NCBI RefSeq assembly: GCF_002127325.2 | Contig: NC_035449.2 | Span: 82,245,657-82,309,656, forward strand | Source of the DNA: Helianthus annuus | Taxonomy: Eukaryota > Streptophyta > Magnoliopsida > Asterales > Asteraceae | DNA: 64,000 nucleotides | Reading direction: 5' to 3' | Shown here: positions 3,979 to 50,284 of the stretch, in pieces | How positions within the stretch are numbered: position 1 is the stretch's first letter | How the letters are laid out: every line of letters starts with the position of its first letter | Translations under genes and position numbers: made by a program | Notes under the pieces: model-generated | Database searches by the model: none | Told to the model about the DNA's origin: nothing | Seen by the model: the letters and a program-made list of their open reading frames with translations, nothing else

Positions 3979-5080
3979 ATCTGTCACACCCCCAAAATCC
4001 ACCTGCGGATAACACCCGCTTCGAGGGCGTGACTGACCAGGATCCAGCCACCAATTATACCGAAAACTTAAGTTGATAACAAAAGTAATACTTACTATTC
4101 ATAACTTAGCAAATATTAAGTCCAGAGTTTAAAGTTTTAAGTTCAAAATAGTAACAAGTAGCGGAAGCATAAGTAAGGGAGTTTAAAACAAAGTTCATGA
4201 TTCAAAATAAGGTAACACCCAACACAAGGGTGAACAGACACTACACGTTCCCAAGCTGCAAGCTCCTTCGTCACTGGTTACCTGCAAAGCATGCAGTAAG
4301 GGGTCAACAATAATGCTGAGTGAGTTCACTAGTTGTCCAGTTTTAATTACTAAAAACTTTGTTTCACCGGTTAAATTATCCGTTTATACATGCCCTGGGG
4401 AGCTACCCCAAAAGTTAGCGACTAAACTGTTTTTCCAATACCGAACACTAGGTAACCGTTGCGTATCCGCAGGATGCCCCGATGTCAATGTTCTATCATC
4501 ATTGACGGATTTCTGAGTACATTAGTTCACGACCGTCCCAAACCAGGGCACGGTGTGAGGCTGGTAAACACCTAAATAGCGCTATCAACTAAATACCCGT
4601 TCGCCTAACCCGGCGACTAATCGGTATTTGTAGTAGGGACTTGAGTGATAGAGTTTCGTTTAGTGCCGTTAGTTGCAATCCGTATAAACAGTAATTAACC
4701 AAAAGGTTTCCCAATACCCGGGAAGGAAAAGTAAGTTTTGTTCCCAATAACTAGGGAAGGTATGTAAATGGTATCCCCTTTTACCAGGGGATAGGGTTGT
4801 TAGTCCCGTGTCCCAAACCACCGGGACGCATGCTTTTAAGTTGTGAACTCACCTTGGGTTGCTCGGTAGGTTTAGGTTACTTGTCAATCACGTTGGTCAC
4901 CACGTCCTAACATGGTTACCGGTATAGGTCAGGTTCGGTATACAAGCATTCACGTAAAACACATACAGGTACGTAACACGCATACAAGTAACACAGTCAA
5001 ACAGAACACAGCAACACATAGTCCACTTAACAGCTAGCCCAAGTTAACACAGAATGGCCCAATAACCAAAATGGACAGCC

Positions 5081-5312
5081 CACTCGCAACCAGCTGGTCT
5101 CGAGTCGCAACCAGGTGGTCTCGGCTTGTCACGCTGTGGTTGCGAGTCGCAACCGTGGTCTCGAGTTGTCACGTTTTGGTTGCGAGTCGCAACGGCGTGG
5201 TCTCGAGTCGCAATCTCGTGGTTTCGAGTTGTCCTGCTATGGTTGCGAGTCGCAACCGTGTGGTTTCGAGTCGGAGTGCTGTGGTTGCGAGTCGTAATGT
5301 CGTGGTTGCGAG
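5081..5312 (-). repeat. GC-rich array of GTTGCGAGTCGCAAC-type units in LTR of element 1
   Basis: About ten imperfect units alternate a near-palindrome (GTTGCGAGTCGCAAC and variants) with TGGTCTCGAGT. They stand out sharply from the AT-rich LTR around them. The array lies downstream of the presumed start of transcription and uses the same motif as the block upstream of the TATA box at 6143-6187. Confidence 0.85.
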
Positions 5313-6068
5313 TCGGAAACTGTCATTTTCATGTACACGTGATGATGCAGATGCATCAGTCCATTATGTACCAAGAATTCAGGCCCAAATCCGGAAATAA
5401 CCAATAAGATTTCTACAAACACTTTTCCTAATTTTGACCATTAAACCATATAGATCAAACTTTGCCATTTTTACATCTTCAAACCATATTCAAACAAGTT
5501 CATGTAGTGTTCATAGTTTTCTAGGGTTTTTATATCCAACAAATCCATATATTCATGAACCAAAAATCACATATTTTTAACAAGATCATGATGCACAAAC
5601 AAGAAAACATACATTTTATAATCTTGAACATAGTTTTGGTTGGCATAATCATTCCTAAATCACTATACTTTAGCCATCTTTAAACATGTTATATGAGGGT
5701 TTTCACATATGACCAAACTTCACAAATCCTCCTAAAAATCATGTAAAATACTACTAACCAAGCGTTTTTCTAGTTCATATACATATCATTCAAGCAAGAA
5801 TACAAGGCATTTCTAGTTCATAATATTTCACAAATCTTATACACTAAGAAGATAACACTAACCGGTTATGAAAGGAGGGCCGAAAACAAAGAGAAGAGAA
5901 CCGAGAAGATGGAGTATACGAGTGATGGTCTTGACCGAGTCCTTGTCCGAAATCCTTGCTTGAACCGAAAGAGGAAGAAGAGTGGTGTTGTTGTTGAAGG
6001 TTACTAGTTGAGAGAATAGAAGTGTTGTGGGTTTGTGTGTTGTAACAAATGAGGGAAAGTGAGGAGAA

Positions 6069-6187
6069 GGTGGGATATATACATGGGGTGGTTTTCGGGT
6101 TGGGCTTGGGGTTTCGGCCCAAGCCGGTTACGGCTCAACGGCCCACTCGAGACCGAGTGGCCCACTCGCAACCGCCCGGTTGCGAGT
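6069..6187 (-). promoter_or_regulatory. LTR promoter of element 1: TATA box plus upstream inverted repeats
   Basis: Minus strand: TATA-like GTATATATC at 6074-6082. Upstream lie CCACTCG/CGAGTGG arms (6143-6160, 4-base spacer) and 11-base arms ACTCGCAACCG / CGGTTGCGAGT (6164-6187, 2-base spacer). Three GGCCCA (site II, TCP-type) motifs lie between about 6115 and 6165. TATA function is inferred from position and sequence. Confidence 0.6.
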
Positions 6188-6340
6188 CATGGTCTCGGGT
6201 CGTGGTTTCGGCTCTTATATATATATATATAATACATACATACATCACATATCATGCACAAAGGTCACGTTTTCATTTAATAATATTTATATACACAAAA
6301 TATTACAAGGTGATCGTTCGGAAAAACCTCGAGTGTCACA

Positions 6341-10107: not shown

Positions 10108-12347
10108 TGTAACACCCTTAGTATTTGGACGGAATATAACTAATAGTTATATTAGTTAAGGTACAAATCAGAGTTTATAAAAACTTTTTCTTCTTTTAAG
10201 GACCATACATACTTGTTGAATTACCAAAACCTTGTACAATAGTGCATAACAAGTTAAAAGTTAACCCTTTCTAGTAACTAATCACTAGTTTAAGGGATTT
10301 AAAACATGATTAACAAAAGTATTTATAACATAATAAAGTTCTAGACATAGTTATATTTAGTGCGAAAGCTTCAAAATGCGTGTTCGGTTCTTGACAACAT
10401 ACTTGATCACCATCCGGGGGAAACTCATCCATACCTAGGGTCAAACACTAAATACATTAGTTTTGGAATTGATTCATTACGTATAAATGGATTCTAACAA
10501 CACAAAGTAATAAACAAAATATGATTTTTGTTCTGGGTTCCACCGTAACTTACGGTGTCACCGTAAGTTACGGTGGACCTGGAATGTCCCTGGTTCTGTC
10601 GTAAAACAGGGGCTTCTCACCGTATCATTTTAATCTCCACCGTAAATTACGGTGGAACCGTAATTTACGGTGGACTCTGCATTCTTGCCCTTTAATTATT
10701 TTCCAACTTTTAAAGATCATAACTTTTTACTCGCTTGTCCGTTTTAGCCGATTCTTTTTCGTATGAGTCTGTAATAAAATTACGGATTCAACCATGTAAA
10801 TTTTTCATCGCAGAAACCGAGATACCGACAATCGGTTCACAATTTCCTTGTCTCAATTATCCAACCCATTAGTGAAAATGCATAGCACCTCCTCTCCATT
10901 CTTAAAAACTTTTAGACATAACTACCCAAATTCCCGGGCTCATAAAATTTGGTGTATTCGTGCCATTCCATGGCTTTGCGTTCCCTTAGGACCAATTACT
11001 TGTTTCTTCGGAATTCAAGCATTCCGTTTCAAACGACACTTTCATAGAGCTTCTATTGTTTGACCTGATATCTCGGGTTCTTAGTATTAAAATTAATATA
11101 GCCAATTTAATAGCGTGGTACAATCCACCACTTAACGAAATATGAGACTTTCAAGTCTCTATTCTCATGATTCTTTTTATAAAAGCATCTTTTGACACGT
11201 TTGGCTATTCAGTGAAAACTATCACTTTGTTGACATGCCAAGCTAATTTCCAAGTCCTTATTTTGACCCGTTTAATGGTCGAGTGTACTTCGTCACTTTA
11301 ACGACACATCAAATGCATCATTTACACTACAACATCAATTACATATCAAACAAAGCATTTAAGCATAATTTAACGGGACTAAAGTCACGCACCTTTAAAG
11401 CACACCTTTTCCGCGGGTATCACTTCCGGCGTGTCCACTTGACGTTCCGGATTCCTTGCCTAAAGAGTTCAATTCATAACAAGATTAGAACTCTTTCATA
11501 AGCTTTAACGCATTAATTCATAACATATACAAATCTGCGTTTTTAGCAATCTTTAACACTTTAACCCTCATTTAGGCGTTTTCTCAAACACCTTGCGGGT
11601 CAGATTTCTACATGATCTAAACCAAGTTCATAACTTGAAATTATCACTCAAATTAACTTCAATTAGACAATATACACATATTTTAACATCAACAATTTCA
11701 GAGATTATCTCACAATTTCAGTTTTCACTAGAACAAGAGTCTTAATCCTAGTGTTTATCAAGTTCTACTAACTTACTAATCACCCACTATAGTGATTTTG
11801 ATCCTTACAACTAACATGCAAGATTTTGACAAGAAATCATCCAGGGTTTGTCCCTAGACTTCACATTACATCCAATTTCATGTTTTACAACACATAATCA
11901 ATCTCAACCTTCGATTTCAATCACATTCAAGAATTTGAGTTGTATCAAAACAACCTAATTTGACATACCTTATGACCTCCTTGACGAGGAGATCACGATT
12001 CTATGTCCAGATTTCGATTACGACGTGATTTGAGCCTTCAATTTGAGAGTTTAGTAGAATTTAGGGTTGTGAAGGTGTGGGTGTCGCCCCTGTGGTTACT
12101 TGATCGACCAGGAACTCCAAAATGGGGTGTTTGGTCTTTATTTTACTAATTATTAGTAATTTAAGTTTCAATTTTGACAACCTAGGCCCCTCCACTCTTA
12201 TTTAGTTTATATCTTTGGCTTTTTAACTCATTCCTATGTTACTACAAGACTTCTAACTAACTGGGTTATTTATCCTAGTTAGTTTATTTTTGTTTATTAT
12301 ACACTTTATAATTCTAGTATAAAGTTTTGAAATTTCGGGATGTTACA
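10108..12347 (-). mobile_element. 5' LTR of Ty3 element 2 (about 2240 bp)
   Basis: Minus-strand ends TGTAACATCCC... and ...AGGGTGTTACA. The inner end abuts the degenerate primer-binding site, and beyond the outer end the sequence changes to the Ulp1-like gene region. A possible TATA box (TATAAAC, near 12200) is weak. No coding potential was recognised; small open frames are scattered and unconvincing. Confidence 0.8.
10541..10673 (-). repeat. paired ACCGTAA.TTACGGT inverted motifs in LTR of element 2
   Basis: CACCGTAACTTACGGTG (10541-10557) is followed at once by its exact reverse complement CACCGTAAGTTACGGTG (10559-10575). CCACCGTAAATTACGGTGG (10637-10655) is followed by a matching partner (10657-10673). 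Each unit is itself nearly palindromic. The array lies in the downstream (U5-side) part of the LTR. Confidence 0.85.
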
Positions 12348-15895: not shown

Positions 15896-15998
15896 TCAAC
15901 CAGTCGTCCGTTCGGGCTGCCGTCCGATCGGACAGGCTGTCTGATCGAGCTGCCTGGCCGATCGGCCAGCCTTTTCCTCTTTTGGAACTCTATAAATA
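15896..15998 (+). promoter_or_regulatory. LTR promoter with CCGATCGG palindromes upstream of TATA box
   Basis: TATAAATA at 15991-15998. Upstream lie two perfect palindromes: GTCCGATCGGAC (15922-15933) and CTGGCCGATCGGCCAG (15954-15969), plus imperfect copies. The nearest ends 21 bp before the TATA box. Confidence 0.65.
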
Positions 15999-16648: not shown

Positions 16649-17176
16649 TGCCGTCCGATCGGACAACTGTCCGAACGGTCGGTCAGCCGAATGGCTTGCA
16701 CCTTGGGTCCCACACATAATCAACTTTATCTGAAGTTTGAGTTTTGAACGAGCTGCTACCCGATCGGACTACCATCCGATCGAATTACCCTTCGAATCAT
16801 GAGATACTTGGGCTTTAACACTTAATCGATTTTTCAACATGTTCAATGCACTAGGAATGCCACCCGATCGAACTGCTGTCCGATCGAGTGACATCCTGCT
16901 GTGAACTTGTTTTCACTGAAGTGCCCAACCGATCGGGTTGCCAGCCGATCGAACGACCGTCCGATCGATCGACCTGAAAGGTAGAGATACTTCTATGTTT
17001 TCAAACGCTACAACAAAAACTTCAAAAGTCAAAACCATTATACACAAACACATCCTTCCTAAAGGAAGAAGCAATCCACTCGAACGACCATCCGATCGGA
17101 CAGCCGTCCGAACGGATTGTCACTCACACGGCCAACTGTCCGATCGGACTACCAACCGATCGACCAGCTGTCCGAC
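16649..17176 (+). repeat. dispersed CCGATCGG array in transcribed part of the LTR
   Basis: About fifteen copies of (C/T)CCGATCG(G/A) and close variants (e.g. near 16656, 16760, 16865, 16930, 17090, 17140) are spread over 530 bp, downstream of the TATA box, and use the same motif as the promoter block. The spacer sequences differ, so this is not a simple tandem repeat. Confidence 0.8.
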
Positions 17177-18058: not shown

Positions 18059-18155
18059 CACTTCGACAAGTTCGAAGCCTGAAGTCCTTAACATTTAACT
18101 GTGTTTCAGGTGTTTTATCATTATGTCCCTCTTCGATTGCTTTACCTACCTCTGC
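18059..18155 (-). pseudogene. Ulp1-like exon fragment between two LTR insertions
   Basis: 97-bp island reading AEVGKAIEEGHNDKTPETQL and NVKDFRLRTC on the minus strand. The frame continues upstream across the element at 18156-23109 (PMTLLIV|AEVG, one copy of the 5-bp duplication counted) and downstream to 15487. This shows that one exon was hit twice. Confidence 0.7.
18151..18155. repeat. target-site duplication, left copy (TCTGC)
   Basis: Identical to 23110-23114 on the other side of the element at 18156-23109. Confidence 0.95.
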
Positions 18156-19918
18156 TGTAACACCCCAACCCGGAAGGGCTGACGTGTCACAATAACGGTA
18201 ACATAAACAAAAGTCATAATTCCATTTTTATTTGATAAGTATACAACCACACGACCATAAAAATTTAGATTATTATACAAGCGGAGACAGTTGTCTTAAT
18301 TAACTAACATCTTCAGATTTATTCCTAGACTTTATTCTTTCTCTCTTTTCCCCTCTCAAAGTAACCTGTGGACCTGTATATACAAAAAGTTTACGGAATG
18401 AGCCGAATGCTCAGTACGGAATTTAGACTCAAATAACAAATAATGCTTCATATGAAATCTTATCCGGATGGAACTTTAGGCGAAAATGATACGATGCAAG
18501 AACAAAATTTCATAATCATATCTTACGGATGTACCCATGAGCAAACTTAAAACGCGACAATACACAGGTAGCTACTCCTGCATAATTATCACATGAGATG
18601 GCGAATTGGCATACCCGTTATCCACCTCCTTATACTTAAATTCTAGGATCGATCCATACGCCTCCTAATAGCCTTATGTACCACACTTGTACTTAAGAGA
18701 CGCCGTGAACTGATCTCTCCGTCACGGATGGAGCACATGATGTTGATGCCACAACAACATGCTCGTGGGACACTCCACGAGAAGCGATACTCAGGGTATC
18801 AGAGTACAAATGGTCTTATTCACATAACTTATAAAACTTATTTTCATAACAAAACAGAACATATATTGGAACATGCGATAATGAGTATAACAACATAATA
18901 CTATCGCATGACATGCAAGTTAAATCAAATGATTAGGATAGGAATCGAACGGACTGTCAAATGAATCGATAATCAAAGACGTGAGGAGTTTTTAACAGAT
19001 ATAATAATTTAGTGGTTTTATAATAATTTGAATATGAAGCAATAAAGAGTGGGGTAAGGATCCGTACCTTAATAACTCCAAAGTGAAGCTACCTTGTGCT
19101 AAGGTTTTAGATTTATACGGGCAGAGTTTAGACTACTGATTAATCTTTTAACCTAATTTAAATAACATGCACACAAACTAGGTTAGTAACTTAATACAAC
19201 ATTTACGTCAATTCACGAGATTAAACCTTCACAACAATTAACAAGTGCAATACTTCAACTCATTTATCGAATTATCGACAAACGACAAAGTATAATACTT
19301 AATAATTCGATCGGATTCACAACGAATAACAGAGCATAGTCCGAATTCGAACAGCACTCAAATATTCAAGTCGAAATCACGATGAACAATAAAGTATAAG
19401 CTCAATTTTGAGCAGCACTCGGACAATCGTCGGATAGTTATAATCGATCGGATGTTGAATCGTAATAGCGATCGAGTTATTACCCTGATTGCGGCAGCGA
19501 TTCGTGAATTGTGTGTGTTGTGAACGATTTCTGCTATAACTCAGCGTATACTGTGAGTTTTTTCGTCGTTCAAGTGCCCAATTTCAAGTCCCAGACTCCT
19601 CTATTTATACCCGAAATTTGACCCTGTCGCGTAGCGCGAGGGGTACCCCCATGGGCGTCGCGCTACGCGAGGGGTAACCTATGTTTATAGGGTAGCTACG
19701 TGTGTAACTAGGCTTGCCGTGTTGACAGTTTCTTAAATTTCAAATTTGACAGATAGTTATGAGGATAATCGTAACTAGGGTTTTGCCCCCCATGAGTTTT
19801 AGGGGCCCTGATCCTGATTCTGATGATTCTGAAAATTTTAGGGTTAGTGCAGAATTACTTGGGTGTCTTAATTAGGGTTTTCTTAGTGGTTAATGATTTT
19901 AAATTTAGGGGCATTACA
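18156..19918 (-). repeat. 3' LTR of gag-only element (1763 bp)
   Basis: Plus-strand ends TGTAACACCCC...GGGGCATTACA. On the minus strand the TATA box TATAAATAG is at 19601-19609. The paired motifs TCGCGTAGCGCGA (19627-19639) and TCGCGCTACGCGA (19658-19670) are exact reverse complements and start 17 bp upstream of the TATA box. Confidence 0.93.
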
Positions 19919-19957
19919 ACTATTACCCCCTTAAAAGAAATTTCGTCCTCGAAATTT
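19919..19957 (-). other. polypurine tract and conserved 3' palindromic motif
   Basis: Minus strand reads a 20-bp near-palindrome of the form AAATTTCG.GGACGAAATTT (19938-19957), then AAGGGGGTAATAGT directly before the 3' LTR. Autonomous relatives often have this motif at the end of pol, but here there is no pol. Confidence 0.75.
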
Positions 19958-20375
19958 TTGCAATTAAGCATATAACCTATCGCATAAGTACCAGAAATGA
20001 AAATTTTATAGCAGAGTTACTAACTTATATAACTAGAACCTCCTAACCACACATGTGTATCTGAAATTTATAACTAAGGTCATGACTATACTTGTCAATT
20101 ATCCTATATATGTGCCCTAATGGTCCTTTTTTTAAAATATTCTTTCCGTATGAAAAGTTAATAGAGATTTACAGATACTTAGAGTGACTATTAGTACTGA
20201 CATTTCCTACATAGATATACTTAGTCATAGCTAAAATATATTCACATAAGGTAAAGCGTAAATGACCGTAAACAGAAACAAATGAACATATGTCAAAGAG
20301 CAAGATTTACCGTTACTTGACTAAAATTCTATTGCGAGAATAGATTAGGGTATAAAGGAACGAATTGATTCTTCC
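19958..20375. other. non-coding internal region of the gag-only element
   Basis: About 420 bp between the gag stop and the 3' motif, AT-rich. No trace of protease, RT or integrase in any frame I could read. Confidence 0.7.
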
Positions 20376-21206
20376 CTATTTCTCTTCTTTATTATCCCCA
20401 GTTCGAGATAGGAATTCTTTCCTTTCGAATTCAAAAGTTTTGATTGCATCAGCAACTTCGGTGATATCCTTAAATTTCATGTACATGATCGACTTCCGAA
20501 TTTGATCATTAACTGCCCACTTGCATTTTTCTGCCTGGACTTCTGCTGATCCTGCAACATCTCCTACAATACTAACCAACCTTGAAAATCGAGTAATGAA
20601 CTCAGAGGCTGGTTCATCACTCCCCTGTCGAATTATTGCATACTCCCTGATATAAGCTTCTTTATCAGCGGTCGAAAAATACTTATCGTAAAAGATATTA
20701 CGAAAGTCGACCCATGAAAGATTAGCGTCAAAATCATCCCCTCCTTTGACTTGCTTATATCCTTCCCACCAAGTTTGTGCGTCATCTTCCAATTTGTAGG
20801 TAGCTAGTCTAACTTTGTATTGCTCCGGAACTCCAAGAACTCCGAAGATCTTTTCAACATGAGCTATCCAGTTTCTTGCTTCGACTGGATTAGTAGCGTG
20901 ACTAAAGGATTTCGGCTTTTGTTTTTGGAATTTACTAATCCATATGTCTATACTATAAGTAATATTGTTAGTGGTATTCTCACGAGTTTCACCACCAGAG
21001 ATTGGATTAGTGTTAGTGCGTTCTGGATGAAGAGTTTGTTGAATAACGGCCTCAGCCGTTTGAGAAACCAGGTTTGGAAGCAACTCAGCAACAGCCTGGT
21101 TGATAGCATTAATTATGTTTGGATCAACTGGAGTTTCATTCGAAGAAGTGTTGTTACGTTCATGGTTAGTACGAGTATTCCTACGTGGCGGACGACGAGG
21201 AGGCAT
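20376..21206 (-). CDS. gag: gag protein of non-autonomous Ty3 element (276 aa)
   Basis: Capsid-like structural protein with a basic N-terminus (MPPRRPPRRNTRTNHERN). The retrotransposon gag core spans about residues 85-260: WISKFQKQKPKSF, then ARNWIAHVEKIFGVLGV, DDAQTWWEGYK, FRNIFYDKYF, EFITRFSRL. It stops after ...DNKEEK before any CCHC zinc knuckle, which relatives carry next, so RNA binding would rest on basic residues or on a partner gag. The frame is intact, in keeping with the young LTRs. The start is the first ATG after the leader (21204-21206). Confidence 0.9.
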   Translation of the reverse strand: MPPRRPPRRNTRTNHERNNTSSNETPVDPNIINAINQAVAELLPNLVSQTAEAVIQQTLHPERTNTNPISGGETRENTTNNITYSIDIWISKFQKQKPKSFSHATNPVEARNWIAHVEKIFGVLGVPEQYKVRLATYKLEDDAQTWWEGYKQVKGGDDFDANLSWVDFRNIFYDKYFSTADKEAYIREYAIIRQGSDEPASEFITRFSRLVSIVGDVAGSAEVQAEKCKWAVNDQIRKSIMYMKFKDITEVADAIKTFEFERKEFLSRTGDNKEEK

Positions 21207-21329
21207 CTATAAGAATAGACATAGGAGTTAAACCAAATAAGAGATCAAGTTGAATCCTATCATAGATATCTACCCATTCCTCACAGGTCTTAATTACTAT
21301 CTTCAAGTTTTCTACAGGAAAGAGCCTTT

Positions 21330-21341
21330 GCTCTGATACCA
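21330..21341 (-). other. primer-binding site of gag-only element (tRNA-iMet)
   Basis: Minus strand TGGTATCAGAGC, separated by a few bases from the end of the 5' LTR (...GGGGTGTTACA). Confidence 0.9.
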
Positions 21342-21345
21342 TAGC

Positions 21346-23109
21346 TGTAACACCCCAACCCGGAAGGGCTGACGTGTCACAATAACGGTAACATAAACAA
21401 AAGTCATAATTCCATTTTTATTTGATAAGTATACAACCACACGACCATAAAAATTTAGATTATTATACAAGCGGAGACAGTTGTCTTAATTAACTAACAT
21501 CTTCAGATTTATTCCTAGACTTTATTCTTTCTCTCTTTTCCCCTCTCAAAGTAACCTGTGGACCTGTATATAAAAAAAGTTTACGGAATGAGCCGAATGC
21601 TCAGTACGGAATTTTAGGCTCAAATAACAAATAATGCTTCATATGAAATCTTATCCGGATGGAACTTTAGGCGAAAATGATACGATGCAAGAACAAAATT
21701 TCATAATCATATCTTACGGATGTACCCATGAGCAAACTTAAAACGCGACAATACACAGGTAGCTACTCCTGCATAATTATCACATGAGATGGCGAATTGG
21801 CATACCCGTTATCCACCTCCTTATACTTAAATTCTAGGATCGATCCATACGCCTCCTAATAGCCTTATGTACCACACTTGTACTTAAGAGACGCCGTGAA
21901 CTGATCTCTCCGTCACGGATGGAGCACATGATGTTGATGCCACAACAACATGCTCGTGGGACACTCCACGAGAAGCGATACTCAGGGTATCAGAGTACAA
22001 ATGGTCTTATTCACATAACTTATAAAACTTATTTTCATAACAAAACAGAACATATATTGGAACATGCGATAATGAGTATAACAACATAATACTATCGCAT
22101 GACATGCAAGTTAAATCAAATGATTAGGATAGGAATCGAACGGACTGTCAAATGAATCGATAATCAAAGACGTGAGGAGTTTTTAACAGATATAATAATT
22201 TAGTGGTTTTATAATAATTTGAATATGAAGCAATAAAGAGTGGGGTAAGGATCCGTACCTTAATAACTCCAAAGTGAAGCTACCTTGTGCTAAGGTTTTA
22301 GATTTATACGGGCAGAGTTTAGACTACTGATTAATCTTTTAACCTAATTTAAATAACATGCACACAAACTAGGTTAGTAACTTAATACAGCATTTACGTC
22401 AATTCACGAGATTAAACCTTCACAACAATTAACAAGTGCAATACTTCAACTCATTTATCGAATTATCGACAAACGACAAAGTATAATACTTAATAATTCG
22501 ATCGGATTCACAACGAATAACAGAGCATAGTCCGAATTCGAACAGCACTCAAATATTCAAGTCGAAATCACGATGAACAATAAAGTATAAGCTCAATTTT
22601 GAGCAGCACTCGGACAATCGTCGGATAGTTATAATCGATCGGATGTTGAATCGTAATAGCGATCGAGTTATTACCCTGATTGCGGCAGCGATTCGTGAAA
22701 TGTGTGTGTTGTGAACGATTTCTGCTATAACTCAGCGTATACTGTGAGTTTTTTCGTCGTTGAAGTGCCCAATTTCAAGTCCCAGACTCCTCTATTTATA
22801 CCCGAAATTTGACCCTGTCGCGTAGCGCGAGGGGTACCCCCATGGGCGTCGCGCTACGCGAGGGGTAACCTATGTTTATAGGGTAGCTACGTGTGTAACT
22901 AGGCTTGCTGTGTTGACAGTTTCTTAAATTTCGAATTTGACAGATAGTTATGAGGATAATCGTAACTAGGGTTTTGCCCCCCCTGAGTTTTAGGGGCCCT
23001 GATCCTGATTCTGATGATTCTGAAAATTTTAGGGTTAGTGCAGAATTACTTGGGTGTCTTAATTAGGGTTTTCTTAGTGGTTAATGATTTTAAATTTAGG
23101 GGCATTACA
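21346..23109 (-). repeat. 5' LTR of gag-only element (1764 bp)
   Basis: Same ends as the 3' LTR; differs by about ten substitutions or single-base indels. TATA box at 22792-22800 with the paired TCGCG motifs at 22818-22830 and 22849-22861. Drives gag transcription if active (inference). Confidence 0.93.
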
Positions 23110-24022
23110 TCTGCGACAATTAACAATGTCATGGGTGAAAAGGGTTCTGTTTTTTTAACAAACCTTCATTATTTTTCATGGTTGCAGGAGTATTTTCTCC
23201 ATCAAAGGCTACCCTCCCTTGTTCACCATTAATGCTTCCATGTGCTTTCTCTACATCCAGACCTACATTTTCTCCATCAGCTCTCACGCTTGAATGTCTC
23301 TTTTCTCCATCCACACTTACATTTCTTGTTCACCGTCAACATTAAGATGTTTCATAATTAACTCATTCCATTCCAATTCCTTCTGTTTCAATAGTTCACT
23401 TTCCAGGTACATAACACATGATTCTGTAAGTGTGTTTTTTTTATCCTGCATACGCAATCTTCAAAATCCTGAGATGGTGTGTTCCCGTACTGTGATATCG
23501 TTGGCACTCGGAACTCCCCACCAGTACCTATAAACAATCCCCACGTTTGGGTATCAGTTTGTGATAGTAAGTAGTCTACAAAATGTTTGTATATACCCAG
23601 GTACACGTCATCATCTTCCATTTCTTCAGGAGCTCCATCCACAAGCTCATTTTCCATTTGTATGTCCTTGTTTGCCTCTTCAGCACAGTCCGATGGTAGA
23701 TGACATGAATCATTGTCCCTTGGTGTTTTCATTCTTATATTTGTCTTTTCTGACACCAGCTTGCATTTTCCATTAGGATTACTCACTGTATCTTCTTTTT
23801 GTCTAGCAATTTTGGTTTTCCTTTTTTCTTTTTTCCCTCGAATCAACCTCTACAAATGCTTTGGTTTTTTTTTCCGACCTTTCCTTTTGGTTTCATTTGC
23901 GGATATAACACTGCATTTCCTTTTAGGTGTTGTTTGAGTGGATGGTGTCCATCTCGGTACTAAGCTTTTCCAACACGTCGTCGTCTACCAATCCGGTAAG
24001 AGGGGAACTACGCGGGGGAACT
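23110..24022 (-). pseudogene. Ulp1-like gene: long central exon, frameshifted
   Basis: Opens after an ATAG acceptor near 24023 with SSPLTGLVDDDVLEKLSTEM. The frame then shifts into KRKCSVISANETKRKGR, and later reads DDDVYLGIYKHFVDYLL with FEDCVCRIKK, characteristic acidic and basic linker sequence before the Ulp1 domain. A run of seven T (23150-23156) marks another shift, after which PMTLLIVAEVG continues at 18155 beyond the retrotransposon. Function of this linker is unknown. Confidence 0.65.
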
Positions 24023-24154
24023 ATGCACCGAATGTATTGACTTCTTCTCAATTGTGTATGCAATCTGGCACAATAATTGCAAGATGATTATTACATTCAT
24101 ATATATGTATGTTTTGTATGAACTTAAATGATATGTTAATGAGTAGCAACTTAC

Positions 24155-24972
24155 CTCGAGTAACACCATTGGTCCTCTATAAGCATCATCATCACCGTGC
24201 CATGCCCTTTTTGTTCGGTTTAGGGATGATACCATGTAGGAACACCAATCAAAACTTTTAATATCAACATTTGGTTGTATACACAGAACATAGCGCACAT
24301 TTACCGAATTGTTAGTCGTAGTTTCACCCATTAACGAGAAATAGAAAACCAGGAAATTCAAGATGAACAACCGCCCATAATCGTGTCGATCCGACATGTA
24401 AATCAGTAGCCGTAATGGTGACCACCTCTTGCGATTAATATTCTTAAATTGATTTCTGAATTCTTTCACAACTGGATCTTTCTTCTAGTTTGCTTTTTTC
24501 TGCTCAACCAGTTTAGTTTTTCCTTGAGGGAGTCCGAAGTCACGGTACACCAGATCCGATGTAATGTGTACTGGCCGACCGCCGACCTTCACCAAGATTC
24601 AACATACATGTATTCAGGTCGTAATTTGAAACAAGTGTCCTAATGTGGTAGGAACACCTGTTACTTTAAAACTGAATATGGAGCCAAACCCAATTTCTAA
24701 CACTTTCTACCGTTGCTCTTTATTCAGACCATTTGCTAGATGTAACAAATTATCTATCGACACCTTTGGCCTAATTCTAGCACCCGTTAAAGGCATATAA
24801 GGTTTTATTAACACTATTTGCTACCTCGTTCGTATTGGCAACCTTTTTGCCACTGATTTACGATGCTTCCCAGGTGGGGTGTCAACGAAATCATCGTCCG
24901 GGTCGGCATGTGAAGAAGGGTTTTGGACAGGGTGTACCACAACAGGTTCGTTTGATTTGACTAGCGAATCTA
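24155..24972 (-). pseudogene. Ulp1-like gene: N-terminal conserved domain exon with three TAG stops
   Basis: Reads DSLVKSNEPVVVHPV, DDDFVDTPPGKHRKS, GARIRPKVSIDNLLHLANGL, VLEIGFGSIFSFKVTGVPTT, then DLVYRDFGLPQG and finally FDWCSYMVSSLNRTKRAWHG, up to a perfect donor CTCGAG|GTAAGT. This is the block that precedes the protease in plant Ulp1-like proteins of transposon type. TAG codons at 24821-24823, 24707-24709 and 24485-24487 interrupt it, and the frame shifts near 24600. It cannot be translated intact. Confidence 0.7.
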
Positions 24973-25040
24973 CAATAAATAAATATAGTTTAGTACACCA
25001 TAACTTAGGAATTTCACTATAATATTAAATAAATAACTAC

Positions 25041-25092
25041 CATTTTTTGTTGGTAGTCGCGATATTACACTCACTACTACCACCTGCCACAT
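25041..25092 (-). pseudogene. Ulp1-like gene: 52-nt copy of the small repeated exon
   Basis: CACAG acceptor, DVAGGSSECNIATTNK, ATG|GTAGTT donor. It matches the 51-nt exons at 31932-32588 but has one extra A in an A-run, which would shift the frame. The retrotransposon at 25316-31807 separates it from them. Confidence 0.6.
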
Positions 25093-25174
25093 CTGTGTAA
25101 TACAATACAACCCTTATCACACAGAATTAAAAAAAACCACAAATATTAACACAACCTTATTTGGTATTTACTTA

Positions 25175-25300
25175 ACTTTTTTGTTTGTAATATCGCCGCT
25201 CTCTTAGGTTGCCAAGCATCTTGCCGTTGATTTATACTTCCTCCCGGGAGGGAGGTCTACGATTTTTTTCCTGCCTCAGGGTGTTTTGGAGGAGGATTTT
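25175..25300 (-). pseudogene. Ulp1-like gene: duplicated exon remnant
   Basis: Reads KKIVDLPPGRKYKSTARCLA, a diverged copy of DDDFVDTPPGKHRKSVAKRL in the exon at 24155-24972, with stops in frame. Edges are approximate. Confidence 0.45.
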
Positions 25301-25315
25301 GGTTTTTTCGCTTAG

Positions 25316-26529
25316 ATGCTTACGGTCCGTAAGCATTTCAAAATTCGTATATAAATAGCAGACTTTGGGACTGGAATTTGGGAGATTGAACGACGTAAAA
25401 ACTCGTAATACACACTGAGTTACGTTCTGTTTACTATCAAAATCACTAATTAGTATAGCGGGGTGCTGCTACGATACAGGGTATTAACTCGATCGCTGCT
25501 ACGATTCAATGTCCGATCGATGGAAACTATCCGATGGATGTTTTAGTTCTATCATTTGTCATTCGTCGTGATTCCGACAGGATGTTTGAGTATCACCCGA
25601 ACTTGGTGAATACTCTGTCATTCGTTGTGAATCCGATGGATGTTTAAGTGATTGCACTTTGCCATTCGTTGTGAGGGTTTTAATCTCGTGAGTTATCGTA
25701 ATTGCTGTATTAAGTTACCTACCTAGTCCGTATGCACTAGGATACAAGGTTAAATCAATAGGCTAAGCTCTGCCTGTATAAATATGAAATATATCAAGGA
25801 TTATCTGTAGACTAAACTTTGGCCATATGAATCTGCATGCTTATAATGTGAGTCATTCTCTTTTTATCAACTGTTTTACAAAACTCCAAATATATTTTCA
25901 AAGTTATAATTACAGGGATTAAGTCTTTGTAGTCACCATATTACAGCCGGTATGTGGGGTTTTGTATACATTACTTGATAATCTTCACCATTGGGGCAGC
26001 CAATGGGTGATATGACCATAATCACAGACACCATTGGACAATTAGAGGGCCAATGGGTCGAGTGACAAAGTACCGTGGGTAGTTGGTTTGATATCAGAAA
26101 CATTGTAATCGCTCTTAATACTGTAAATTCTAACAAATGTGTCGTTTTCAGTAATCTGAATGATTCACTTAGTATTTTTCGCTGACAAAACCTTTTTAAA
26201 ACGCGTTTCAGGTAATTACAGTAGATTGGTGTAAAAAGATGGATACGGCACTGAAAGGCATCAAGAAGTGGCATATTTTATTAATTGAATCAAATTAAGA
26301 AATCTTGTTTTATAAAATCAAATTTATTTATATTAAAGCTACCATTGTAAAACATGGGTTTTATCCCATCTATTTAATAAATAAAATCCGGTGTTTTTAA
26401 ACTCTGATATTTTTCCTAACTCACGGTCCTGATGAAATTTCCGCTGCAATGTTTTTCAAAATAATCACCGGTACCACTAGGCTGTTCGCGGCTCCCGATT
26501 CCGTCCAGGGTGGGTCGGGGGTCGTGACA
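25316..26529 (+). repeat. 5' LTR, truncated at the promoter palindrome
   Basis: Lacks the first 280 or so bases of the 3' copy. Homology begins exactly at the first base of the promoter palindrome (arms ATGCTTACGG). TATA box at 25348-25358. It has about 45 extra bases near 25620-25675, between two CATTCGTTGTGA copies, that the 3' LTR lacks. Confidence 0.88.
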
Positions 26530-29500
26530 GAAGGTGGTATCAGAGCCACTACTTTAAGCCTATAAGTGTTGTGATAATTATACTTAAGCTTAAATAAAAG
26601 AGTTAGGAGATTGCTATTAACTGGTAGCACATCTGATAGCATTTAGACTTGAACATAAGAAAAGATGCCTTAGTATAAGCTAAGCCACTTGTTTAAACAA
26701 TTAGAGGTTAATACCTAAGTTTAAACGTAGAGTTAGGAACTTAATATTATCTGGTAGCACCCAGGATGATAGTTAGACTTGAACTTAAGAATTTTGCCTT
26801 AATATAAGCTTCAAGATAAAATTACTTATATAAGTCTAATGTAATGAATATTGGTATGCCATAAGAACGACGATTAGCAGGCAATAACACTTAATTACTA
26901 TTTATTATTGTTTATTGATATTACTTAATCCAGAATAAAGATATGTATGGAAATACAAATTTCCTTGATTCTAGATAAAAGCTCTAATAAAAGAGGCATT
27001 TATCTTGAAAAGATACTATTTATGGGAAATAGAAAATTTTCTCCGGCAAAACTGGGTATAGAGTAGCAGACTCTCCAGCTTGTCCGGATATATTGAGATT
27101 ACCTCTCCGGCGCGAACCGGATAAGACGGGGTACATAGTATGTCAAACAAGTGACAAGATTTCCCTAAATAATATCGTGATTTGATATCTGATTTGTTTT
27201 TGGAAATATGAATCTGTTAAATACATTGACCTGATAAATGGTATGTTTATTTCAGCATGTGAAATATGTGATTATATAGATAGGTATATCTATAAGGAAA
27301 TCCAAAAAAAAAAAAAAAAAAAAAAAAACCATAAGGATTGACAATTTGAAATAAAGCACAAGCATCTGTGTCTAGATTTCTTTATCAGGAATCTCTTTTC
27401 CAATATCAGACATTATTTTGTTTGATCATTTACCTCGTAACTCGTACGAGAACCCTTTAAAGTTGGGATATCATCAAAAGTATAAGAATTTCCAATACAT
27501 TACCATAAATTATTAACACAAGTAAGAAGCATATAAAGTTGTGCTAATATACAAGAAAACCCATGAAACTTAAATTATACGTCCACAAAGGTCAAAGTAT
27601 ATCACATACGACTTCCAAGCAAAGACCTTTGGAAAATATAAATTAGGCACGATGACACCAATGCTAATTCCGTTAGTAGAAAAACTACTAATCAAAAAGA
27701 AGCACTTTGCCATATGATCCTACAACTGACATAAATCTCGCTGAGGTACGTTGTAACAAGATTTCACAATTATCGGTACACAGTCTAATCAAATTCATAA
27801 TTATTATCACTACGAGTCACATACCTTTGCAAACTTCCCTATTTCATTTTATTCGACATTCCCTAGTAATGTCACTTAACAACAGTTATCACACAAAATT
27901 CCAGATAGAAGTTCTTATATTTCTTTCATTAAAATTCTGACTTCTGCATATAAAGAGTTGACTTTCGTGTTTCTATTTCCTCTAATAGTCATCATACCAT
28001 GAGGATTTCTTTCATAATAGCAAATATTGATCTATTTCATTTCTTGGTAAATCCACATGTTACACACATGCACTGTTTGTTACACATGTGGTTCATTTGA
28101 TTTATGAAGACCACTGGAGGACTTCATTCCGATTTGTTATTTTATCCAAACTCAAATATCATTCCGCTTTTTGTACTGTGAACCGCATTATTGCAAAACA
28201 ATGACTCTTTAATATCGAATCAATGAATTTCTTGAAAAACTTGATTTTCTTTTAAAAGGTATACATGGTTTCTGTTATAATCATGTCCAAACTTCCTTAT
28301 TAAAACTCGTTTTATTCAAACCCAGTTAACTTGCTCGCAATATGTATTCAATTCAAAGTCCCATATGATATTTTCAGGCCGTCATATTTGAAATAATCCC
28401 AACAAGCACTTTGATTTTCTTTAACTATAACATGCTTGTTTGGTCTTCGATTTCACTGAATCGTTTCTTTGATCACGATCACTTTGTGGTGACGTTTTCA
28501 CAAAATCTGAAGCTTATGCTAATTTCGGATTTATTTATTTATTTATTTATATTGAATCTGCTTGGATTTATTCTATAAAAGCAATCGTAACACAATTGTG
28601 TGCTAAGATAATGATACACAAATTTATTTTTCAGTATATCTCTTAATGATTCTTACAACATCAATCGAGCCTTTCGTGATAATTATTGCTTCAACATCTT
28701 CAATCGAAAAACATTATATAAAATTAATTATATATAGAAACTTACATAAATGATTACGTAATTTACAATATAGTATGACTGTATTCTTATTAAAACATTG
28801 AGGTAAAGAATTTATATTTTTATAAATATGTATAAAAATTATGTTTGAGTTATACTCTCATTTAAGTGTATGTTTAGTTATTTATTACTAATATTAGTTT
28901 TATTATTAGTAATAAAATATTAATAGTAATAGTGTTAGTATTATTTTAAAATATTAGGGTTATTGTCAGGGGCAGGTATTAAATATCCTAGCCTTAGTTA
29001 GGCATGGACTGGCCACCTATGCTTAAACAAGGCAGCACTAACCAATATCCGCCATGATAATCACTAGTTAATTAAGTCATCATACTTATTTAGTAAATCT
29101 TAATTATATATAAAAATATTTTACTTTGTACTGTAAAGAGAAGACATATTTTCATAAAATAATATAAGAATTAGAGGGACAAATAAAACTATATAAATAA
29201 TAGTCTAACACATGTTTTGTGGTAACTATGTACAGTAACGCTCTGGCAAGAAAATGACTATATAAGAATAATATGGTTGTCATCAACTACGTTGGGTTAG
29301 GGGAACATGGTAATATATAAGAATACTCCCCGTTTTCACTTATTTACAACATTTGTAAATACATTCACAACATTATATGATTTCAAAATGAAAATAAGTA
29401 ATCACATTGAATCAACCCATTAAGTATTATATATATTTACAAAATATTTCACAAATACTTTTGTACAATAAATATTTTTACACCTTTATTTACCACTTTC

Positions 29501-30358
29501 ATTTAACGTTATAAATAAAAGTGAATTCTTTTACAAAATAATAATACTAAAATATTTTGTAATGTAATAACTTCATTGCGGTATTTTGTAATGTATATTA
29601 CATAATAAATATAAGTTATTTTACATAGTATAGTAAAATACTATAATATTTATTTAAAAGTAGTGACCATTTACATATAGTAAATATAGTAAAAATGTGT
29701 AATAAATAATATATATTACATTTGCTTTACAAATATAATATAAATTGGTCATGCCAAAACAACTTGTTCTTATTATATTTCGATCTATAGGACATAGTAT
29801 GAAAAAAAAATATGGTCACTAATAGTGTACTATCACATTGTTAAAACAACTTGGAACTTTAAACAATAATACACTAACTCTATTTTCTTTCCGTATATCC
29901 TTACGATTCACTCATGTCAGCACATTGATTTTCTCATATCATAATTTAATATTTGACAAATCATTTTTCATGCCTTTATTTCAATTGGAACCTGTCAATT
30001 CTAAAGTCTTACTCAGTTGCCAATCAAAGTAAGCTTTCTTTTGACAAAGAATTTTTATTGATTCTAAAAGTCCTTCACATTCATTCTAAATATCTATTAA
30101 TCATATATCTTTTGGATTGAACCTAGTCACCTTAGAAATTATATCATTTCATCTCATTCGTTTGTCATCAATTTCTTGAACTAATTCAGTTGAATCTTTG
30201 AATTCTACTTATGGTACAACTCGTATTCACAAAATTAGATATTTTGATTCTGTGACATCTATCTTAATATTGTTTTATTGACTAAAATATAACATAAGTC
30301 TAAAAGAAATATCATAAACCAAATCTCGAGGACGAGATTTTTATTAAGGTGGGGAGAA
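26530..30358 (+). other. interior of the LARD-like element, non-coding
   Basis: AT-rich, with scattered short open frames and no recognisable domains. It has an A25 run at 27304-27328 and, at 30321-30340, the near-palindrome AAATCTCGAGGACGAGATTT ending 18 bp before the 3' LTR. That is the motif which usually marks the end of pol. Confidence 0.75.
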
Positions 30359-31807
30359 TGTAACAACCCTCATCAAAACTATTATTTATTGTATTATTTC
30401 ATCCAATAGGAAACCCTAATTGAGACACCCAAGTGATTCTGCACAAACCCTAAAAATTTCAGAACAATCAGAATCAGGATCAGGGTCCCTAAAACTCAAG
30501 GGGGGGGTATTCCCTACTTAACGATTATCCTTATAAAACGTTGTCAAAATTGAAATTTACAAAAAAATGTCGACTCAGCAAGCATACACCCACACGTGGC
30601 CACCCGATTTCGTGTCCCTTACGGACCGTCAGGAAAAAAATGCTTACGGTCCGTAAGCATTTCAAAATTCGTATATAAATAGCAGACTTTGGGACTGGAA
30701 TTTGGGCGATTGAACGACGTAAAAACTCGTAATACACACTGAGTTACGTTCTGTTTACTATCAAAATCACTAATTAGTATAGCGGGGTGCTGCTACAATA
30801 CAGGGTATTAACTCGATCGCTGCTACGATTCAATGTCCGATCGATGGAAACTATCCGATGGATGTTTTAGTTCTATCCTTTGTCATTCGTCGTGATTCCG
30901 ACAGGATGTTTGAGTATCACCCGAACTCGGTGAATACTCTGTCATTCGTTGTGAAGGTTTTAATCTCGTGAGTTATCGTAATTGCTGTATTAATTTACCT
31001 ACCTAGTCCGTATGCACTAGGTTACAAGGTTAAATCAATAGGCTAAGCTCTGCCTGTATAAATCTGCAATATATCAAGGATTATCTGTAGACTAAACTTT
31101 GGCCATATGAATCTGCATGCTTATAATGTGAGTCATTCTCTTTTTATCAACTGTTTTACAAAACTCCAAATATATTTTCAAAGTTATAATTACAGGGATT
31201 AAGTCTTTGTAGTCACCATATTACAGCCGGTATGTGGGGTTTGTATACATTACTTGATAATCTTCACCATTGGGGCAGCCAATGGGTGATATGACCATAA
31301 TCACAGACACCATTGGACAATTAGAGGGCCAATGGGTCGAGTGACAAAGTACCGTGGGTAGTTGGTTTGATATCAGAAACATTGTAATCGCTCTTAATAC
31401 TGTAAATTATAACAAATGTGTCGTTTTCAGTAAACTGAATGATTCACTCAGTATTTTTCGCTGACAAAACCTTTTTAAAACGCGTTTCAGGTAATTACAG
31501 TAGATTGGTGTAAAAGATGGATACGGCACTGAAAGGCATCAAGAAGTGGCATATTTTATTAATTGAATCAAATTAAGAAATCTTGTTTTATAAAATCAAA
31601 TTTATTTATATTAAAGCTACCATTGTAAAACATGGGTTTTATCACATCTATTTAATAAATAAAATCCGGTGTTTTTAAACTCTGATATTTTTCCTAACTC
31701 ACGGTCCTGATGAAATTTCCGCTGCAATGTTTTTCAAAATAATCACCGGTACCACTAGGCTGTTCGCAGCTCCCGATTCCGTCCAGGGTGGGTCGGGGGT
31801 CGTGACA
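30359..31807 (+). repeat. 3' LTR, complete (1449 bp)
   Basis: TGTAACAACC...GGGGGTCGTGACA. Promoter: a 21-bp palindrome (arms ATGCTTACGG around a central T, 30640-30660) ends 11 bp before TATATAAATAG (30672-30682). A partial ACGGACCGT copy lies just upstream (30621-30629). Confidence 0.92.
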
Positions 31808-31931
31808 TGACCCGCGAATCTACATTAAGTAAATATAATGTAATACACCATAATTTAAAAGTTACAAGTAAATATAATGTAATACACCATAATTTAAAAG
31901 TTACGACTGTAATATTATCCTAAACAAATAC

Positions 31932-43340: not shown

Positions 43341-44105
43341 CTAGAACTGCATCTCACACTCGTCATACTTCCAGACGAGTTTCTCTCCTATCTGACGGAT
43401 CCGATTTCCCTCTTCAACTAACTCTTCACCATATTGGCGAAGTTCTTCCACATTTTCTTGGTTTATGGGTGGTAGTCGGGCTTGCACTGGGTCAGGGTAA
43501 CGTGGTATGGGTTCTCCGTAAGGATATGGGTTGTTCAATATATCCTGAGTTGACCTGTTGTCGTACCACCACGGGTCTAAAGGGTTCAGTGTTGTATACT
43601 GCTCTATAGGGTTTGGTGCAGGAATTCTAGGGATCTCATTGGGGTCAAATGTTGGGACTGGGAATTGGTCCTCCTGATTCTGTTCTAGTTCCATGGGTTG
43701 GTTAGGAAATAAAGGTAGAAGTTGTGGTTTAGCTACTTGGTTAAGATTAATTCCCCCCTCTACATTTTCAATTTCTACATTCCCCACCATGTGAAAATCT
43801 GCTAGTTGCCTGTCTAATTCCTCTTCCCATAAAGGTCTACCTATTTGGTTTTGGGTATTTCTTTCTCTATTTGCTATCATGCGTTGTTGGAGTTTTTTCT
43901 TTCTTTTCCTCCTTTCATGAGCTCCTCTACTAAACCAACCTCTCTTTTTAGGGGGATATGGTTCCTCGGATTTTGCTTTGAAAACAAAGACTTCCTCAGA
44001 ATCAGAAGTATATCCTGGGTTTGACTGGGCAGTTCCTTCATTCTTTGGGGAATGAGGTAATTGACGGTAGGCGTCAGAGGTACCTTGATAACTGATACTG
44101 TAAAC
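43341..44105 (-). pseudogene. gag: gag N-terminal fragment of a Ty3-type element
   Basis: Open frame from about 44105 (SYQGTSDAYRQLPHSPKNEG) through KKRGWFSRGAHERRKRKKK and MIANRERNTQ, with a Pro-rich middle, ending at 43341 next to the microsatellite. There is no ATG before 43880 in this frame, but TTTACAG|TATCAG near 44104 is a good acceptor, so the N-terminus may be spliced. The capsid core, knuckles and pol are absent, so the element is truncated at the microsatellite. Confidence 0.6.
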
Positions 44106-44235
44106 TAGAAATTGTCAAATAACACAAAATAATAATATACATATTTACACAGAATAACACATAAGTTATTTCCTAACACAATTGGTTAAAATTTAGGTAT
44201 TAAGAGAACACCTAAATGGTTTAAACCAGTGGCTT

Positions 44236-44253: not shown

Positions 44254-45539
44254 TGTCGCAGCCCTGATCCCTACCCCGGGAGTGGGAGCCGCGGACAAGC
44301 AGCTGGTGGTATCGGTGTTTGTTAATTTGGCAGCGAAATTAAAACATCAGGATCGTAGTTAGAAAATCAATTTCAGAGTTTCAAAACACCAAACTTTTAT
44401 TGGGATAAAACCCTTGTTTCATTGATAATGTATTTATAGGGATAAACCCTTGTTGGTGAAAACATAAACTTTTATTTTGGTAACTTTTATAGCCACTCTC
44501 TTTAAACCTTCAGTGCTCCATAGCGGGCTTCTTATAGCTTCACATTAAGTTACCTGAAACGCGTTTTAAAAAGATTTTATCAGCAAGAAATACTGGAGAG
44601 TGCATCCCAGTTTAATCAAAACAAGCTTTTACAACTTTATGGTATTGAGAGCGATTACAATGTTTATATCTACCCATATACTTATTCAATACTTGTCACT
44701 CGACCGGATCTGTGACTATGGTCATATCACACATTGGCTAACCGTTTGTCCAATGGTTACGCTTATCAAGTAACGTATACAAAACCCCATAATATCGGCA
44801 GTAATTGTAAAATACAAAGACTCAATCACTGTGAGTATATTTGAAAATATTTAAGATTTTGTAACACAGTTTGGTAGAAAAAGAGAATGACTCACTTCGT
44901 AGATTTAGGTAATTCTATAGATTCGTGTTGATTATTTTCTATTAAAAACAGACAATGCACACATGTTAGTAAGATAACCCAAGTCACTTAGCCATACCAC
45001 ATGAGACAGACCTCCAACGAACTTAGTCAGGTAGAGCTTCGACATGCGTTACGGAGCCCTAGATCAATCGGGTAGGGTAACGAATTAGTGATCGAGGGTT
45101 AAAATATTTACAACGAGGCAGAGCTTCATGTTTTAGGGGTATAATACCGAGCTACTTTTAGCTATAATAGAGGATGAGAGAATAAAGAAATGAACGAATT
45201 GTAACTGAGGCTGAAGGCCTCCTTTTATACTTGAATTCGTCACTGGCTCGCGCCCCGCGACCCGCTAGCCTGGTCCATTTGCGCCCTGTGAGAGACCCCC
45301 TAGCTACGGCTAGGGTGGCCTTCCCACCACCTAGACTCGAAACATACCTGGACACGTGGCGCAAGGAGAATCTGGCAATCCATGGGTTGTCGCGCCCCAC
45401 GAGCCACCCTCAAGACCTAGTCGCGGCCCGCGAGCGACACCTATTTCTAATTTTATTTGATTTTTATAAAAATTAAGGTTAAATGGGACTAGTTATGTAT
45501 GTACGGGTATAATTAGGGTGTTTTATGAGGGTTGTTGTA
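44254..45539 (-). mobile_element. 5' LTR of truncated Ty3-type element (about 1286 bp)
   Basis: Inner end TGTCGCAGCCC (plus strand); outer end ...GAGGGTTGTTGTA, where a degenerate start of the TGTAACAACC type is expected. The R-U5 part is homologous to the LTRs at 25316-26529 and 30359-31807 (shared CGCGTTTCAGGTAA, TACAAAACCCCA). TATA box TATAAAAGG at 45221-45229. TCGCG-CCC-CGCGA at 45248-45260 and TCGCG-GCC-CGCGA at 45421-45433 lie upstream of it. Confidence 0.75.
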
Positions 45540-49934: not shown

Positions 49935-50284
49935 TGTAGGATCGAGGACTGACCCGAATGAGTCGATTAGAGCCGTTCTTCTATGTTTCAGGGGCGGAAT
50001 TACAAGAAACACGGATAGAAATAGCTTGTTCTTCACCTAATCTACTGTTTTATTGATTTGACAACGATTACAGCTCAATCTTCACACCGGCAGCACTTCG
50101 GTATGGAATTCGATCACGTTCACTACTCCTGTTTCGCTTCAAATGACCTGCTATATATAGATGATGATGTTTCGCTTATGTGTACATGACACATAAGCGA
50201 AACCTTATCATGACCGAATAAGCGAAACTAACATCTTACGGTCATATAAGTGAAACTTCTACCTAAAACACATACACTCGCCTA
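49935..50284 (-). repeat. 3' LTR of gag-only copia element (350 bp)
   Basis: Plus strand starts TGTAGGATCGAGG. TATA box CTATATATAG at 50151-50160. A hairpin with 15-bp arms GTTTCGCTTATGTGT and a 5-base loop (50169-50203) ends 8 bp upstream of it. Further AAGCGAAAC copies follow. Confidence 0.9.

Follow-up and report, generated by a model that had tools for sequence, protein, structure and literature searches.

In a large clade of long terminal repeat (LTR) retrotransposons of sunflower (Helianthus annuus), a short cassette upstream of the promoter's TATA box changes its letters between two classes, while its register and symmetry stay. Two elements of this kind, A and B, lie in a 64,000-nucleotide stretch of contig NC_035449.2 (positions 82,245,657 to 82,309,656), which is rich in LTR retrotransposons and is referred to in full as the window. 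From the sequences compared here, we consider it reasonably probable that the cassette serves the LTR promoter as an operator with two sites, bound by a symmetric, probably dimeric protein. Each site of this putative operator is a 13-bp dyad, TNNCG-N3-CGNNA, with the proximal one centred 24–25 bp before the TATA box and the distal one further upstream, mostly by 31–32 bp in class I and 23–25 bp in class II. Class I sites read TCGCG-N3-CGCGA (A type) and class II sites TTACGG-N-CCGTAA (B type). An original prediction made on the window had instead described a block of about 70 bp replaced as a unit, forming a hypervariable promoter module.

The LTR coordinates given in that prediction proved correct: 21346..23109 and 18156..19918 for the 5' and 3' LTRs of A (minus strand) and 30359..31807 for the complete 3' LTR of B (plus strand). 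All the flank and inner motifs it listed were found, although one A copy has TCAACGACG in place of TGAACGACG. The A cassette (class I) occupies 22813..22880 in the 5' LTR, with dyads at 22818-22830 (centre -24 from TATA) and 22849-22861 (centre -55), and 19622..19689 in the 3' LTR, with dyads at 19627-19639 and 19658-19670; the TATA box TATAAATAG is at 22792..22800 and 19601-19609, respectively, all on the minus strand. In the 3' LTR of B, the class II cassette (30606..30661, plus strand) is followed by a TATA box at 30674..30682 (plus strand). The flanks of the two U3 (unique 3') regions are homologous, as had been proposed, and the cassettes are not, a contrast beyond chance. Upstream, 189 of 226 ungapped columns are identical (z 23), and in the downstream 120 bp 83 of 110 (z 11); none of 1000 dinucleotide shuffles was as good upstream and none of 1000 shuffles downstream. 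For the cassettes (68 bp in A, 56 bp in B) z is -0.7 and 728 of 1000 shuffles did equally well. The drop in identity is not confined to the cassette, as identity falls again in a second block at roughly +55 to +105 and the 3' 948 bp (A) and 736 bp (B) of the LTRs are unalignable (z 0.5). A third LTR, C (44254..45539, minus strand), has its R/U5 in common with B (z 27.8) and its U3 not. The LTRs A, B and C are mosaics.

The cassettes of A and B had been called unrelated, which is true of their letters only, since both hold two dyads. Those of A are TCGCG-TAG-CGCGA and TCGCG-CTA-CGCGA (centres -55 and -24). Those of B are CTTACGG-A-CCGTCAG (centre -49) and the perfect dyad ATGCTTACGG-T-CCGTAAGCAT at 30638-30662 (centre -24); the former, imperfect one (CTTACGGACCGTCAG, 30618-30632) had been missed in the original prediction. 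Both builds fit TNNCG-N3-CGNNA and share a register at -24 and at 39 bp from a CACGT box. Allowing at most one mismatch, TCGCGN3CGCGA occurs nine times in the window, where 0.11 occurrences would be expected; the LTR pair of A accounts for four. LTR C, with its TATA box at 45229, has the same arms, TCGCG-CGCGA, at 45248-45260 (centre -25) and again as a pair at 45390-45402 and 45421-45433, with the 18-bp gap of A and different spacer letters; the 31-bp spacing of the A pair thus recurs with an unrelated spacer, which happened in none of 100 shuffles. CpG dinucleotides are concentrated in the same region of U3 (12 in A and 10 in B at -150..-1, one in each at -300..-151), and most of the U3 CpGs of A and B sit in the cassettes.

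The sunflower genome (3.01 Gb) was sampled with two patterns, both of which demand TATAAATAG, so that LTRs with another TATA box lie outside the samples. The first, CACGTRGCYACN{45,75}TATAAATAG, gave 99 matches and its reversed control none; its gap is too short for long class I pairs such as that of A itself, which cannot appear among these matches. The first sample of 53 promoters comprises 30 loci, 20 chosen rows (12 class I, 8 class II) and winA, winB and L010X; 22 promoters are class I and 31 class II. The second pattern, CAGAATCAGGATCAGGGN{168,198}TATAAATAG, joins a conserved U3 block to the TATA box and is blind to the cassette. It has 2,624 matches in the genome and none in the reversed control. 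From the 100 matches listed, all on contig C1, 65 promoters were read. The other 35 were excluded: 28 within 18 kb of a kept row (mostly LTR mates), three A-type rows, two rows with text like that of a kept row and two rows of one element; one A-family row (L111) was kept. Class I accounts for 50 of the 65 and class II for 15. A perfect class dyad is present in 54, at most one mismatch separates 61 from their class, and three have two mismatches and one has three. The many alternative cassettes that had been expected were therefore not found, two classes being sufficient for 65 of 65. No third class was seen among these promoters, a statement that rests on mismatch counts since each promoter was assigned to the nearer of the two classes.

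Symmetry (at least 4 of 5 pairs) at -25..-23 was found in 62 of the 65 cassette-blind promoters. Among the 46 unique cassettes of the first sample, 41 are symmetric at -25..-23 (shuffled mean 2.3, maximum 8 in 500) and 37 at 39 bp from CACGT (shuffled mean 0.7, maximum 5). Averaged over the 53 promoters, symmetry reaches 3.9 of 5 at -24, compared with 0.4–2.0 at all other positions from -40 to -10. A count of best centres gave only 17 of 53, because ties were counted for the distal dyad; in shuffled sequences the mean was 1.7 and the maximum 7. The last strict dyad lies at -23..-25 in all 30 class II promoters having one (31 in total). Strict dyads occur in 20 of the 22 class I promoters, and in 14 of these 20 the last one is at -24/-25. 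Where a class I cassette is short and has just one strict dyad (ten promoters), that dyad stays at -24/-25. Spacing is more variable. In the cassette-blind sample the two class I dyads are 31 bp apart in 33 promoters, 32 bp in 12 and 20, 24, 30, 33 or 38 bp in five, and those of class II 23 bp in 12, 24 bp in one and 25 bp in two. At arm positions 4 and 5 the classes differ by paired changes (G-C/A-T and C-G/T-A), these positions being paired in 30 and 27 of 33 unique sites versus 14.7 and 14.8 after shuffling. Among 48 typed rows, the class I dyad centres are CCA (6), TCA (6), ACA (5), TGG (2), TAG (2) and CTA (2), and one row, L036, has its dyad broken by a deletion and was scored in no class. 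As the promoters are homologous, part of the register's constancy within a class comes from common descent, and independent evidence is provided only by the match between the two classes. On the TATA boxes of the window, a dyad in the band -45..-10 gave a Fisher p of 3.4e-6, for a band chosen after viewing the data; wider bands gave 7.5e-5 and 6e-4, and A alone 0.086.

If the cassette is an operator, a dimeric DNA-binding protein sitting at the dyads would help the TATA box to fire, and selection would keep symmetry and register. The half-sites TCGCG and TTACG may correspond to two binding proteins or to two specificities. Gag being the only protein encoded by A, such a binder would have to be supplied by the host or by another element. 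Sites of the TCP, E2F, CAMTA and NAC types came into consideration. It is conceivable, and we propose it only tentatively, that the two half-site alphabets switch repeatedly between lineages with the geometry kept, and that they are read by different, perhaps fast-evolving paralogous DNA-binding proteins.

Alternatively, the palindromes could form hairpins in the RNA, within the transcript's 3' U3, and be a source of small-RNA silencing, a role proposed for maize Sireviruses (precedent quoted in PMC10760457). The A and B cassettes do fold into more stable structures than shuffled sequences (z -4.9 and -5.3), as do D, I, J and E2 of the window (-5.1, -6.5, -6.5 and -8.9), and two stretches of U3 flank do not (-1.35 and +0.5). 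However, E1, G, C and K fold weakly (-2.2, -2.8, -1.4 and -0.6), and in the ten class I forms with a single dyad the arms measure only 5–7 bp round a 3-bp centre, which is not enough for a 21-nt hairpin. Nor would a hairpin account for the register fixed to TATA, and we regard this role as unlikely. Palindromic DNA is prone to template-switching events, and the dyads could be a selfish or neutral mutational product, quasi-palindromes that arise and are perfected by template switching without any function. The variation in dyad number (one or two) and spacing (20–38 bp) would suit this explanation, which nevertheless seems quite improbable, because the TATA register is constant while number, spacing and letters change, and because close copies of A keep their cassette as well as the rest of the LTR (0.995).

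Several observations weigh against the operator. The shuffles used for the register carry no correction for promoter homology. In the window, LTR K is without such a dyad and the dyads of D and G lie about 200 bp from TATA. In the genome samples, the class II promoter L034 has a single imperfect dyad off the -24 register, and the proximal dyads of L036 and L069 are broken. The R region has deep troughs of identity of its own (0.38 at +91 and 0.11–0.18 at +331 to +351), and the cassette is therefore not alone in changing fast. Finally, approximately unbiased (AU) tests do not reject one origin of class I (p 0.099 and 0.15 for the two trees described below).

With regard to the turnover of the cassette, mere divergence of two old subfamilies, seen through a region tolerant of change, had been discounted in the original prediction, and we also find it very improbable. 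Between class I and class II (21 and 31 promoters, L010X excluded), identity is 0.61–0.91 at -289 to -89, falls to 0.30 in the cassette and returns to 0.71 just past TATA. The edges between flank and cassette are sharp, the paired arm differences are symmetric, and no graded series of half-sites between TCGCG and TTACG exists among the 65 cassette-blind promoters. What speaks for simple divergence is that upstream flanks are only about 75% alike between classes and that other troughs exist. The term hypervariable, on the other hand, is not supported. In 25 near copies of A, which are its best hits and hence alike by selection, the cassette is identical at 1691 of 1699 positions (0.995) versus 0.991 for the upstream flank. 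Pairs within class II show no trough (0.77–0.82), and a trough is seen only in class I pairs (0.39). Mean flank and cassette identities over 33 promoters were 0.76 and 0.57 for I-I pairs, 0.81 and 0.82 for II-II pairs, and 0.75 and 0.44 for I-II pairs.

The trees favour repeated class switching but are compatible with a single origin. The upstream-flank tree of the 53 promoters has four class changes, two of them forced (AU p 0.099 for a single class I origin). In a tree of 93 promoters, obtained by adding 40 of the 65, picked for class balance, ten changes were counted (bootstrap 7–10), at least four being forced by well-supported branches (AU p 0.15). A tree of +60..+300, made with a quick method and including three long rows, has 12 changes, seven of them forced. 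What can be shown to have moved relative to R/U5 is the U3 together with its cassette, and the breakpoints fall in the interval from the cassette to about +130. L009 and L010 form the LTR pair of one element on contig C4 and share 98.8% identity; their identity to A is 97% from +120 onward, compared with 76–82% in the upstream flank, 44% in the cassette and 75–76% in the core promoter. Between class I and class II LTRs, identity at +130..+290 can be as high as 95.7% where the upstream flanks are at 0.71–0.74. L058 resembles winB in its upstream flank (0.93), has the cassette of L041, L049 and L057 (1.0) and is only 0.68 like winB after TATA. Such breaks fit strand transfer in R, and we infer that U3 exchange would occur by template switching there, during the copying of two different RNAs inside a single particle.

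For the cassette switching on its own, these comparisons give only moderate support. In its strict form, with only the block of about 70 bp swapped as a unit by recombination or gene conversion, we find the model rather unlikely. In its favour are the ten class changes of the 93-promoter flank tree, at least four forced, and L072, where a class II block from -73 to +130 lies between class I-like flanks on both sides in a promoter that falls in a supported clade of ten class I rows. For exchange of a smaller block, L072 offers the best case, but upstream its margin is only slight (0.84 vs 0.82) and the block reaches +130. Moreover, upstream-flank similarity stays at or below 82% in all 2,160 I/II pairs of the 93 promoters, which thus offer no example of a cassette recently exchanged on its own; the AU tests are compatible with one origin.

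Comparisons with known systems are limited to the portions of the cited reports considered here. The repeated-motif (RM) boxes of Sireviruses (PMC2829016) are likewise palindromic motifs upstream of TATA, and class II, not class I, has their CGG-N-CCG core. Sireviruses are Ty1/copia elements with at least eight motif copies per element, and the boxes are said there to be absent from classic elements. In contrast, the sunflower clade is Ty3/gypsy (the gag of A is PF03732 and the pol of its relative L029 aligns with those of the gypsy elements E1 and E2), has one or two dyads (two per complete LTR in A and B) in a register fixed to TATA, and its class I core is CGCG-N3-CGCG. Subfamilies of Tnt1 and Retrolyc1 (PMC1838419) differ mainly in U3 with other parts alike, the same modular pattern as in L009/L010 versus A; their U3 diversity is given as sequence groups, whereas in sunflower the changing part is a symmetric site with a kept register. 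The "plastic" 5' CpG islands of Del elements (PMC4029996) are also variable CpG-rich stretches near the promoter end of the LTR, but the portion considered reports no LTR CpG island in eudicot Del elements, and the sunflower LTRs were compared by CpG counts alone. In the fungus Podospora, the LTR subfamilies of crapaud (PMC10787394) vary mostly in U3 before TATA and include inter-subfamily recombinants for which a template switch was proposed; a palindromic register is not mentioned in that portion. Anti-silencing motifs of VANDAL elements, recognised by VANC (PMC5735166), are family-private, short, noncoding and of fast turnover, but they belong to DNA transposons with an element-encoded binder and dense arrays, whereas the sunflower binder is putative and A encodes only gag. 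Titles and abstracts in the open literature yielded nothing on register-locked dyads in sunflower or Ty3 LTRs.

Element A is complete (18156..23109, minus strand, ends TGTAATGCC..GGTGTTACA), with a 5-bp target duplication, TCTGC, at 18151-18155 and 23110-23114. Its LTRs are 99.4% identical over 1769 columns. The 1.4-kb interior has a primer binding site (PBS) at 21330-21341 and a gag open reading frame (ORF) of 276 aa (20379..21206, minus strand; PF03732; top relative 93% identical, from Helianthus annuus), the sole sense-strand ORF of at least 110 aa; the opposite strand has a 134-aa frame. Two LTRs, a target duplication and no long sense ORF besides gag give A the LTR-gag-LTR layout of the sunflower TR-GAG elements described together with Tekay elements carrying additional ORFs (PMC11728184), a report in which no word beginning with "palindrom" occurs. 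A longer relative (L029:314-9071) shows 93% identity to A along the stretch of 5' LTR and gag, and it has a pol region and carries the chimeric LTR. Viral contigs gave no match to the U3 block, and of 13 pattern stretches found with the gag protein none was confirmed. The 5' LTR of B (25316..26529, plus strand) is truncated, its U3 missing up to the proximal palindrome, the left end of which is its start; no target duplication was evident there on reading. The host sequence at 24953-25045, near B, resembles that at 31803-31895. Element C has a 257-aa ORF (43344-44114) directly after the PBS, a candidate 5' additional ORF placed like those of PMC11728184. It has no Pfam match; among its 32 relatives all with a named source are from Helianthus, and one cluster has 135 members. 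A basic stretch, KKRGWFSRGAHERRKRKKK, was read by eye in this ORF, and tblastn in element B found no relic of it at E 1.

Other LTR families of the window have private CpG-bearing dyads near TATA, most motifs being confined to their own element. Dyads are at -29.5 in I, -27 in J, -70 to -95 in E1 and near -200 in D and G. Those of E2 are in the 3' half of its LTR; K has TGGGCC repeats and no dyad, and H has no recognisable promoter on reading. In the copia element J (49935-50367, 56378-56727, 55783-56163), GTTTCGCTTAT lies in a 35-bp inverted repeat at its -27 site, and GTTYCGCTT occurs at 22 exact places in J, 13 of them in the leader before gag, and once elsewhere in the window. LTR E1 (5082-5315 and 6140-6187) has GGTTGCGAGT upstream of TATA and also as an array in its transcribed part, with eight exact places and none outside E1; on reading, E1 (3983-6336) is apparently inserted in the integrase region of E2. 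LTR E2 (10539-10674) has two long double palindromes made from CACCGTAA/TTACGGTG, the strongest dyads of the window, and its half-site TTACGG is that of class II. In the probable LTR I (end 18061), palindromes of CCGATCGG at 15900-15970 and 16651-17149 precede TATAAATACC and occur again in the transcribed part. LTR G is nested in the 5' LTR of D (60703-64000), with ATGCGGGCCGC sites (three exact, one looser) about 180–300 bp before its TATA box. CpG palindromes with perfect arms of at least 6 within 300 bp were found at four of nine TATA anchors versus 0.73 expected, by a test that misses A. For repeated CpG 8-mers in -100..-1, A, B, I and J are in the top 1–2% of windows, and C, D, E1, G and K are not.

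The clade bears on how mobile elements manage to change a promoter and still keep it. With its thousands of copies, a single sunflower genome supplies natural variants of one putative operator, with one or two dyads, several spacings, two half-site alphabets and one register, and this makes the binder and the spacing rule directly testable. If the two half-site alphabets are indeed read by different proteins, U3 exchange would let an element change its activator or escape its repressor in one step. Our data suggest that mobile elements can alter the letters of a control switch and yet keep its geometry: the identity of a promoter may turn over while its geometry stays.

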